A stretch of DNA of 64,000 nucleotides. Origin: Armatimonadota bacterium. GTDB taxonomy: Bacteria > Armatimonadota > HRBIN16. The position numbers and the translations under genes were made by a program. This document shows, piece by piece, positions 41,425-44,331 of the stretch; position 1 is the first letter of the stretch, and the number at the start of each line of letters is the position of its first letter. Under the pieces are notes generated by a model that made no database searches, had not been told where the DNA came from, and saw nothing but the letters and a program-made list of their open reading frames with translations. Where the stretch lies: positions 310,001 through 374,000 of the forward strand of contig BPGT01000001.1 in the NCBI GenBank assembly GCA_026003175.1, in the 5' to 3' direction.

Positions 41425-42228
41425 ATGCATCTCGGTATCGACAAGGAAACGCTTACCCAGGAACTGCGCCGTCTGGGTCTTTCACGGAGCATGGATGTGC
41501 TCGTGCATTCTTCGCTCAGCAGCATCGGCTGGGTGGAGGGCGGCGCGGATACCGTCATTGACGCCCTGCTCTCGGCGCTGTCGCCGGCGGGAACGATCCT
41601 GATGCCTGCACTGAACGGCTCACCGCAAGATTCGCCTCAAAACCCTCCGCGCATGGACGTGCGCAGCACACCCTGCCCCAAATGGATTGGCGTTATCCCG
41701 GAGGCTTTCCGGCGCCGCCCGGGCGTAAGGCGCAGCCTGCATCCCACCCACTCGGTCACTGCGCTGGGCGCACGTGCCGACTTCTATACCGAAGGACACG
41801 AACACTGCCAGACTCCCTGTGGCGCGGGTAGTCCCTACGTGAAGCTGATGGACAGTGGGGGATACATCCTGCTGCTGGGCTGTAATCAGCAGAGCAATAC
41901 CAGCCTGCATGCGCTGGAGGAACTGGCGGGAGTGCCCTATCACCTGCAGGACGGCTGGACGGATGGCGTGGTAGTGGACGCGGACGGGCGCGAAATCATC
42001 GTGCGCAACCGCCTGCACCTGTGGCGATGGGAACGGGATTTTGCCAAGGTGGACGAGCCGCTCCGCGAGGCTAGAGCGATGCGCGAAGAGATGGTAGGCA
42101 ACGCGTACTGTCGCCTCATCGATGCGGGGGCGATGCGGCAAGTGCTCCTGCCCATCCTGCAGCGGGAACCGCTCTGGCTGCTTTCGGACAGGGCGCGGGA
42201 ACAGTTCTTGAGGAGCCAGCAGAGATGA
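41425..42228 (+). CDS. AAC(3)-family N-acetyltransferase
   Basis: 267 residues from the ATG at 41425 (MHLGIDKETLTQELRRLGLS), GAGG upstream. Antibiotic_NAT fold: VLVHSSLSSIGWVEGGADTV, GTILMPALNGSPQ, PTHSVTALGARADF (active-site His) and GGYILLLGCNQQSNTSLHA. Transfers acetyl from acetyl-CoA to an amino group. Named for aminoglycoside resistance, but most environmental members (YokD type) have other or unknown substrates. Overlaps the SpoIID gene by four bases. Confidence 0.87.
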   Translation: MHLGIDKETLTQELRRLGLSRSMDVLVHSSLSSIGWVEGGADTVIDALLSALSPAGTILMPALNGSPQDSPQNPPRMDVRSTPCPKWIGVIPEAFRRRPGVRRSLHPTHSVTALGARADFYTEGHEHCQTPCGAGSPYVKLMDSGGYILLLGCNQQSNTSLHALEELAGVPYHLQDGWTDGVVVDADGREIIVRNRLHLWRWERDFAKVDEPLREARAMREEMVGNAYCRLIDAGAMRQVLLPILQREPLWLLSDRAREQFLRSQQR

Positions 42229-43412
42229 GGCATCTGCTCTGGTGCACGGTGCTCTTGCTGTTTTCCTTGCCTATGATGGCGCAGGAGCCGTTCAACCCCG
42301 AAGTGCGCGTGTGGCTGACGCGCTGGCAAAATACCCCTCTGCGCATTAGCAGCGACTCCCCATGGAGGGCAACTGGTGCAGGGGAAACATGCGTTATCCC
42401 CGCTGGCGAAATCGCAACGGTGGAGCGCAATGATACACAGTTAACCCTTCGCGCTGGGGACAAAAGCTTGCGGGCAGAGGAGTGGACCCTAGAAGGAGGT
42501 GCACCGCTGAGCCTCTCCAACGCGCAGGACCACAACGGGCGCAGTTACCGGGGTAAACTGCTGTTGTATGTTCGAAAAGGCAAATTGCAGGTGGTGAATG
42601 TGCTGCCTCTGGAAGACTATTTGCTGGGCGTGGTTCCTCTGGAGATGCCCCCTGGCTTTCCCACAGAAGCGTTAAAGGCACAGGCTATCGCTGCGCGCAG
42701 CTGGACGGTGCGCAACCGCCACAAGCACGAGGCAGACAGCGTGGACATATGCGACGGCACGCACTGCCAGGTGTACGGCGGCGTCGCTGCCGAGAGGGAA
42801 ACTACGACGCTGGCAGTGCGAGACACCACTGGTCTCATCATGATTAACGGTGACGCTCCTGTAGACGGTGCTTACACCGCCGATTGCGGTGGACAACCGG
42901 CTTCCAACAATAGCGCGAACACCCCTCCTGCCGACCGCGACGAATCGGGCAGAGATTACTGCGCTGCCAACCCCAGGCACCACTGGTCGCTGGGTTTTGC
43001 TTTTCTGGAAGTCTGGCAGGCGGCAGCAGAGAAGGATTCTGCGCAGCAGATACCGAAGGGTGAAAATGACGTGCAAATCATGCAAACCGATGCAAGCGGG
43101 CGAGTGGTCATGCTTCGTGTCCGCTGGGGTGAGCAAACGTACGAGGTGAGCGGCGCACGGTTGCGCGACCGATTGTCTTTGCCGTCCACCCTGTTCAGCG
43201 TGCGTTTAGATCAGGGTAATACTGTCGTCTTCGAAGGCAGCGGTTCCGGGCACGGAAACGGGTTGTGCCAGTGGGGGGCGGCGGGTAGAGCACGGGCTGG
43301 ACAAAAGGCGGAAGACATCTTGCACTCATACTACCCCGGCGCACAGATTGCGCCGCTAAGCGAGGCGATGTGGGAATGGCGAAGGGTTCGGAAGCCGAAT
43401 TCCGCCCGTTGA
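42225..43412 (+). CDS. SpoIID/LytB-domain protein
   Basis: 395 residues. Signal peptide MRHLLWCTVLLLFSLPMMAQ. The SpoIID domain is clear: VVNVLPLEDYLLGVVPLEMP, AQAIAARSWTVRN, CDGTHCQVYGG, YTADCGGQP and GSGHGNGLCQWGAAGRARAG. Family members are lytic transglycosylases that cut stripped glycan strands. No sporulation genes are near. The start overlaps the acetyltransferase stop (ATGA), and the next gene begins within its 3' end, so these form one operon. Confidence 0.9.
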   Translation: MRHLLWCTVLLLFSLPMMAQEPFNPEVRVWLTRWQNTPLRISSDSPWRATGAGETCVIPAGEIATVERNDTQLTLRAGDKSLRAEEWTLEGGAPLSLSNAQDHNGRSYRGKLLLYVRKGKLQVVNVLPLEDYLLGVVPLEMPPGFPTEALKAQAIAARSWTVRNRHKHEADSVDICDGTHCQVYGGVAAERETTTLAVRDTTGLIMINGDAPVDGAYTADCGGQPASNNSANTPPADRDESGRDYCAANPRHHWSLGFAFLEVWQAAAEKDSAQQIPKGENDVQIMQTDASGRVVMLRVRWGEQTYEVSGARLRDRLSLPSTLFSVRLDQGNTVVFEGSGSGHGNGLCQWGAAGRARAGQKAEDILHSYYPGAQIAPLSEAMWEWRRVRKPNSAR

Positions 43413-43840
43413 GTGAACCAACCGTTCAGCTGCTGGCTCGCCTGCAAGCAGGCGAAACGGTGTGGCTGAAGGCGCAGGGAGAAAGCATGTCGCCTCTCAT
43501 TCAGGGGGGAGACGTGCTGGAGATTGTTCCCTCTTTGCGCGTCAAGCCGGGTATGATTGTGCTGGTAAACACGCCGTGGGGAGTACGTTGCCACCGCGTG
43601 GTGTCGGTGAAAGACGGTCAGATTACCCTGCGCGGCGATACCCTGGAGCAGGAAGAGAAAGTGCTGCGCGAGCAGGTGCTGGGCGAGGTGCGCACGGTAT
43701 GGCGGGGTAAGAAGCGGTTCTCGCCTGCCAGTGGCAAGTGGTGGTTTTATGGTTTATTGCAAGCGCGCGCCCCGCGCTTCATGCACGGGTTGCGCAAGGT
43801 GTGGAAATGGGGGCTCAGACGGAACAGGCAGAGAGTATAA
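43376..43840 (+). CDS. S26/S24-like serine peptidase
   Basis: 154 residues from the ATG at 43376; an in-frame GTG lies six bases earlier. Catalytic Ser in LKAQGESMSPLIQGGDVLEI, and RCHRVVSVKDG with His where bacterial signal peptidases have Lys, as in ER/archaeal-type S26 enzymes. ITLRGDTLEQEE completes the fold. There is no N-terminal membrane anchor; a weak hydrophobic stretch near the end (WWFYGLLQARAP) may touch the membrane. Placed directly before a PqqD protein and a short cysteine peptide, it may process that peptide. Overlaps SpoIID by 37 bases and pqqD by 34. Confidence 0.75.
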   Translation: MAKGSEAEFRPLSEPTVQLLARLQAGETVWLKAQGESMSPLIQGGDVLEIVPSLRVKPGMIVLVNTPWGVRCHRVVSVKDGQITLRGDTLEQEEKVLREQVLGEVRTVWRGKKRFSPASGKWWFYGLLQARAPRFMHGLRKVWKWGLRRNRQRV

Positions 43841-44154
43841 CTCCTGAGCGATACCTGGTACGCTCGCCGTTTCTGGCATGGCGCATTATCGAGGGCGAGA
43901 CGGTTATTATCTCGCCGCAGGAGCGCGAGCTGCATACTTTGAACGAGGTGGGCACTGAAATCTGGCGTATGGCGGATGGCAGTCGCACCCTGCGGCAGAT
44001 AGCGTACGCACTGAGCCAGACATACGAAATCGCGCCTGAAGAGGTGTTGCCCGATGTGCTGGCTTTTACTCAGCAACTGGTAGATAAGGGGGTCGCGTTT
44101 CTGTTTGACTGCCCCACTTCAGAGGACGAGATAGAACGGATGGAGGCGAACTGA
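43807..44154 (+). CDS. PqqD-family peptide chaperone (RiPP recognition element)
   Basis: 115 residues from the ATG at 43807. The PqqD winged-helix pattern is clear: YLVRSPFLAWRIIEGETVII, LHTLNEVGTEIWRMADGSRT, LRQIAYALSQTYEIAPEEVL then DVLAFTQQLVDKG. Such domains bind the leader of ribosomally made peptides and pass them to modifying enzymes. The next gene, starting directly after its stop, encodes a 58-residue peptide with a leader-like front and a cysteine-bearing end. No radical-SAM or cyclase gene is visible nearby. Confidence 0.85.
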   Translation: MGAQTEQAESITPERYLVRSPFLAWRIIEGETVIISPQERELHTLNEVGTEIWRMADGSRTLRQIAYALSQTYEIAPEEVLPDVLAFTQQLVDKGVAFLFDCPTSEDEIERMEAN

Positions 44155-44331
44155 ATGGAAAGGCACACAGAACAACAGGCACAGCAATCTTCTTTGAAGC
44201 AACGCAAGCCCTATCGTAAACCGCAGATGCTTACGGAGACAATATTCGAGACCACTGCGCTCGCGTGCGGCAAGTGTACGTCAGGACCGTTCTCGCAGTT
44301 CGCCTGCAGCACGATAGAGCGCAATTCGTGA
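44155..44331 (+). CDS. Candidate RiPP precursor peptide
   Basis: 58 residues, begins right after the pqqD stop (TGA-ATG). A polar, Gln-rich front (MERHTEQQAQQSSLKQRK) is followed by KPYRKPQMLTETIFETTALA and a short C-terminal core with three cysteines (ACGKCTSGPFSQFACST). The KPY-x-KP...E-x-x-FE-x-x-ALAC-x-K arrangement fits a leader recognised by PqqD and a small cysteine core; from memory, not a search, similar short peptides occur beside PqqD-like proteins in other bacteria. Too short for usual gene finding. The 100 bases after it show nothing I can name. Confidence 0.7.
   Translation: MERHTEQQAQQSSLKQRKPYRKPQMLTETIFETTALACGKCTSGPFSQFACSTIERNS

Follow-up and report, generated by a model that had tools for sequence, protein, structure and literature searches.

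The window analysed here, a 64,000-nucleotide stretch of the genome of an Armatimonadota bacterium (G000:C1:310001-374000; assembly of 4.1 Mb in 7 contigs), encodes a 58-residue peptide that is probably the precursor of a ribosomally synthesised and post-translationally modified peptide (RiPP), with a pathway dispersed over at least three genome sites. Directly seen in the gene content were the precursor, a PqqD-family protein and an S26-type peptidase in one conserved block (Table 1), and an orthologue of a radical SAM enzyme (rSAM) and a kinase encoded elsewhere. The peptide had no family match in Pfam, NCBIfam or PHROGs. Judged from its sequences, it represents a real, strongly conserved precursor family across three bacterial phyla, and it has the make-up of a RiPP precursor: a short encoded peptide with a leader and a core, conserved beside a recognition protein.

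The peptide was present in 8 of the 10 genomes of the window's genus and, at strong E-values, in 11 of 291 genomes of the phylum; six more gave weak matches. Beyond the genus, genomes of other Armatimonadota families carry it, namely G011 with three copies, G038 with two, and G025. Scanning genome contigs yielded 23 peptide loci (5 in the genus, 3 in other Armatimonadota, 12 in Elusimicrobiota, 2 in Acidobacteriota and 1 unclassified). The closest named match was bacterium HR16 (HRbin16; 95% identity), and further relatives are recorded as Chthonomonadia bacterium (one) and Armatimonadota. Purifying selection on the peptide is strong: in eight genus genomes the ratio of nonsynonymous to synonymous polymorphism (pN/pS) was 0.087 over 42 codons, with 0.027 from IFET onwards and 0.17 for the preceding part from KPY to TETI. 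The 29 collected peptides all have YxxP and ALAC, while F(E/D)TxALACGK and ALACxxC were each found in 27 and the C-terminal Ser in 28; the second Cys is missing from both Acidobacteriota peptides. Exactly 21 residues separate the C-terminus from the Cys after ALA, that Cys included, in 23 of the 29. Such a near-invariant core suggests a single conserved role, as signal, ligand or cofactor, and not an antibiotic under diversifying selection.

The preliminary description of this DNA had read the peptide as a RiPP precursor and had named its loss from relatives keeping pqqD and the peptidase as the observation that would speak against this. No such loss was found, as all eight genus genomes with the PqqD of the block carry the peptide, and conservation, selection and neighbouring genes all support the precursor reading well. 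Of the two remaining genus genomes, G007 has a contig that stops within the peptidase gene and no peptide match, and G009 has neither a peptide nor a SpoIID match. The six weak matches in the phylum (E-values of 0.002-0.008) were inspected individually. Five (L073-L077) were unrelated reading frames, and the sixth, in G248, is likely to be a divergent precursor and was retained, being a YxKP peptide (local model E-value 2e-5) that adjoins its own rSAM and PqqD genes. Inspection of the reading frames also led to rejection of the other weak matches, in G009, G017, G019 and G027 and at a second site in G000; their surroundings gave no more than a distant rSAM match (L043) and a weak kinase match (L039). 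A second precursor type (LPYEKP ... MACGK ... C ... KLS) was observed in G064 at L213:6959-7102, just upstream of PqqD, rSAM and S26 genes. Precursors of the ACGK type, including this one, may form a wider superfamily.

The neighbours of the peptide outside Armatimonadota indicated the likely partners. A PqqD gene and a radical SAM/SPASM gene stood beside the peptide at all 15 loci, an S26 peptidase gene at 12 (all in Elusimicrobiota) and an HprK-like kinase gene also at 12, the contig starting just before PqqD in the other three (L056, L066 and L067); the local hidden Markov models behind these counts were partly built from the same loci, so that their seeds match by construction. Within the genus of the window, the genes for PqqD, the S26 peptidase and the peptide have stayed together. 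In the Armatimonadota families f3 and f16, kinase, PqqD and S26 genes share one site, the rSAM gene lies at another and the peptides stand alone. A comparison of neighbours shared by peptide homologues, proposed earlier as a check, came out in favour of PqqD and rSAM, and mostly of the S26 peptidase and the kinase, but not of SpoIID, which recurs only in the genus. Downstream of the rSAM gene there is an Rrf2-family regulator (Pfam) at L058:5160-5555, and genes with a similar N-terminus occur in L050, L059, L060 and L066; a neighbour of the Rrf2 type hints at iron-sulfur or redox control.

As had been stated from the letters, no radical SAM gene was found in the window: it gave no profile match and no called reading frame above 150 residues with CxxxCxxC. 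An rSAM orthologue was located at G000:C3:196684-197685 (E-value 1.7e-105, the next best in this genome being 2.5e-28), with Radical_SAM (7.1e-26) and SPASM (1.3e-11) domains. Matches with E-values below 1e-90 were found in 11 of the 291 phylum genomes, 10 of them shared with the set of 11 peptide genomes. At genus level the two sets are identical, the same 4 of 156 genera carrying rSAM and peptide. In a tree of 46 rSAM sequences, the 11 enzymes encoded away from the peptide formed one clade (98/96) inside the group of cassette enzymes and apart from paralogues; the split of that group itself is drawn open (90/98), and the positions of several long branches are unsure. Set A2 comprised 11 of the 15 rSAMs from outside Armatimonadota (without L050, L061, L066 and L067), and the L066 enzyme, which matches in separate pieces, was excluded from the tree. 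The closest solved relative by sequence was SkfB. The best NCBIfam score of the enzyme, to the mycofactocin maturase, was below the cut-off (155 of 265 bits), and cut-offs of sactipeptide and ranthipeptide maturases were also missed (StsB 132.9 of 625, AlbA 97.9 of 850 and PapB 74.2 of 340 bits). The preliminary description had left three options for the peptide, namely that it is modified in trans, that an unknown enzyme modifies it, or that it stays unmodified; the first, by the rSAM/SPASM orthologue encoded elsewhere in the genome, is now the most likely. The second PqqD gene of the genome (G000:C1:1128204, L040) was set aside, as it lies among genes of ABC-transporter type with no rSAM or peptide match in 20 kb.

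The kinase was found at G000:C2:833350-834125 (L206:9338-10140), in two reading frames. At E-values below 1e-55 it occurs in 12 genomes (G001-G009, G011, G025 and G038), which together with the two pieces in G000 places it in all 11 peptide genomes. The conserved His, GxSGxGK and DE are invariant columns. The predicted model of the L060 kinase (predicted local distance difference test, pLDDT, 90) gave a PEPCK match with Z 14.0 and a root-mean-square deviation of 4.4 over 241 residues; PEPCKs fill the matches listed by structure comparison (Foldseek, VIA-align), and HPr kinase chains are not among the matches listed. On the evidence of these columns and this model, the protein is a kinase of the HprK/PEPCK fold.

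The peptidase had been described as carrying the Ser and His of the S26 class without a membrane anchor. This was borne out: of 23 aligned homologues, 22 keep the Ser of GxSMxP (L063 has Cys) and all keep the His, and an anchor is unlikely, as the maximum 19-residue mean hydropathy is 1.24. The predicted fold was S24/S26 (pLDDT 83), with LexA, SipA and SpsB among the structure matches. A term search of a review of RiPP leader proteases (PMC10885120) found no mention of leader removal by an S26-type Ser-His peptidase. The closest NCBIfam model was the maturation protease of nickel superoxide dismutase (Ni-SOD; TIGR02754), with 23.5 bits where the cut-off is 63.25. This match and the Cys pattern ALACxxC would fit a small metal-binding or redox protein that binds a metal through its Cys residues and matures by proteolysis alone, somewhat like Ni-SOD. 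We consider this highly improbable, because the second Cys is absent from both Acidobacteriota peptides and this reading gives no account of the genes for PqqD, rSAM and kinase linked to the peptide.

For the RiPP pathway the following steps are the likeliest reading. PqqD would bind the leader through YxxP and present the precursor to the radical SAM enzyme, which would modify the Cys-rich core. The kinase would phosphorylate the near-invariant C-terminal Ser; this step is proposed because HPrK-like kinases act in this way on some lasso precursors. According to one report (PMC10368454), such lasso kinases phosphorylate the C-terminal Ser, BsfK also acts on Ser3, and BsfK, the kinase for which this was examined, is assisted by a RiPP recognition element (RRE) protein. 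Finally, the S26 peptidase would cleave after Ala-Leu-Ala, freeing a peptide of 21 residues that starts with Cys; the cut is placed from the motif.

Several points weigh against this pathway. All of the modification chemistry is inferred from genes and none was observed. The rSAM gene is unlinked to the peptide in all 14 Armatimonadota peptide loci, so that the partnership there rests on orthology and co-occurrence, and co-occurrence could also stem from shared ancestry. G009 gave rSAM and kinase matches but none for the peptide; G008 carries the peptide, with no full-length match to rSAM. The kinase of G000 is frameshifted in a homopolymer run, which reflects either an assembly error or a true loss; in each of nine genus relatives it forms a single match. 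In the available sequence, the Acidobacteriota loci and L067 show no S26 gene close to the peptide. From some of these points it could be argued that the peptide is cut, and perhaps phosphorylated, while the rSAM in this genus serves another, unseen precursor: the enzyme is solitary there, its neighbours change, and G009 keeps it with no peptide detected. This is unlikely, however, given that rSAM adjoins the peptide at every locus outside Armatimonadota, that the same four of 156 genera of the phylum hold both rSAM and peptide, and that the peptide search found no second related precursor in the window's genome.

The five genes of the block run head to tail on the plus strand, each abutting or overlapping its neighbour, in agreement with the single tight block first described (Table 1). 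The AAC(3)-like gene overlaps the SpoIID gene and belongs to the same block; it is retained in the genus loci that extend that far. The start codon of the peptidase is GTG, with an alternative ATG at 43376, and the TGA of PqqD directly precedes the ATG of the peptide. PqqD passes the Pfam PF05402 gathering score (63.7 vs. 23.4 bits). In a PDB search, its residues 29-59 (window 43891-43983) matched blades of the designed PQQ-type propellers Cake and Scone, with an E-value of 8.8e-17 that is inflated by repeats; a strand motif of PqqD resembles a PQQ blade.

Table 1. Genes of the conserved block and predicted parts of the precursor peptide (positions in the window).
Feature	Position	Strand	Basis
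AAC(3)-like acetyltransferase	41425-42228	+	Pfam PF02522 Antibiotic_NAT, E-value 1.3e-58; first gene of the conserved block
SpoIID/LytB-domain protein	42225-43412	+	Pfam SpoIID, E-value 2.5e-28; TIGR02669
S24/S26-fold Ser-His peptidase, likely leader peptidase	43370-43840	+	Pfam PF00717 Peptidase_S24, E-value 1.4e-8; catalytic residues; predicted fold
PqqD-family peptide chaperone	43807-44154	+	Pfam PF05402, E-value 2e-17
58-residue precursor peptide gene	44155-44331	+	Conservation in the genus and other phyla; purifying selection
Predicted leader, residues 1-37, ending in Ala-Leu-Ala	44155-44265	+	ALAC in 29/29 peptides; cut inferred
YRKP (YxxP motif, likely bound by PqqD)	44212-44223	+	YxxP in 29/29; role proposed by analogy to lasso leaders
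Predicted 21-residue core, residues 38-58, with three Cys and the C-terminal Ser	44266-44328	+	Length in 23/29; terminal Ser in 28/29

A role in the cell wall had been suggested from the SpoIID gene. This gene adjoins the peptide solely in loci of the window's genus, directly upstream where the loci extend that far, and overlaps the peptidase gene. The linkage stands within the genus and would suit a cell-wall system in which the peptide is a signal or inhibitor working with a secreted SpoIID-type protein. Beyond the genus the suggestion found no support: no SpoIID-type gene adjoins the peptide there, the only weak match, in L053, lies about 7.7 kb away, and the neighbours are propellers or fibronectin type III (fn3) proteins. 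A cell-wall system is very unlikely.

A PQQ_2 beta-propeller gene was found within 4 kb of the pathway genes at 11 of 20 loci in seven genomes, where random placement would give 0.38 (0 of 20000 simulations reached the count); with one genome per clade the count was 6 of 12 loci, where 0.23 would be expected (0 of 50000). The association was noticed post hoc, its control used random placement instead of random genes, and genomes that are related do not count as independent. Propeller neighbours were recorded at L034, L037, L038, L061, L064, L140, L143, L144, L206 and L209. In G011 and G038 propeller, S26, kinase and PqqD genes run in one direction, and the best match outside its own family for the propeller beside the peptide is the propeller beside rSAM in G025 (35-38% identity). 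A protein of 148-149 residues with a signal-peptide-like start follows PqqD in both genomes (L143:9169-9618 and L144:585-1031), in line with these genes. For the block in the window, no propeller gene was matched within 290 kb. Among the scanned loci of Elusimicrobiota, L050, L052, L059 and L066 have fn3-repeat proteins downstream; the giant protein of L063 matches Ig-like models only, and the neighbour in L053 has no match. One could imagine the product as a conserved peptide-derived ligand or cofactor of secreted PQQ-type beta-propellers (in Elusimicrobiota, of fn3 proteins), and so as a housekeeping RiPP and not an antibiotic; we regard this as unlikely.

The peptide defines a RiPP precursor family with a near-invariant core in three phyla. 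The pathway suggests leader removal by an S26-type Ser-His peptidase and phosphorylation of a C-terminal Ser beyond lasso peptides. It also suggests pathways with scattered enzymes, which cluster-based mining would overlook. Should the product turn out to be a partner of beta-propellers, it would join the small number of RiPPs that have a conserved role in the cell.

The kinds of enzyme are already known, while the precursor family, matched by no model of the three collections searched, was not found described in the literature covered, from which subscription papers were mostly out of reach. The pyrroloquinoline quinone (PQQ) and mycofactocin pathways likewise combine a PqqD-type protein and a SPASM enzyme on a short conserved precursor, but the scores here are below all of their cut-offs (for PQQ biosynthesis, PqqD 33.2 of 46 and PqqE 109 of 381 bits) and the present precursor has no Pfam or NCBIfam model. 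Cassettes of the SynChlorMet type (ScmC kinase-like, ScmD PqqD, ScmE/ScmF radical SAM) contain parts of like kinds, namely an HprK-like kinase, PqqD and a radical SAM/SPASM enzyme. They differ in that every part here falls under the curated cut-offs (ScmC 53 of 125, ScmE 120.6 of 400 and, for the PqqD of the window, ScmD 35 of 100 bits), and that here there are an S26 peptidase, a different peptide and genes that are sometimes scattered. The peptidase shares the S24/S26 fold, the Ser of GxSMxP, the conserved His and a small-residue motif before the presumed cut with the Ni-SOD maturation protease and signal peptidase I, but it scores below the cut-off and is without a clear membrane anchor. 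No B2 leader peptidase or C cyclase of the lasso type was present among the cassette genes scanned in L058; no genome-wide search was made. Lasso systems with HPrK-like kinases (paeninodin type, BsfK) have in common with the present system the YxxP leader motif, a separate PqqD-like RRE protein and an HPrK-like kinase, and their kinases act on a C-terminal Ser such as the peptide has; here a radical SAM enzyme and an S26 peptidase are present instead.

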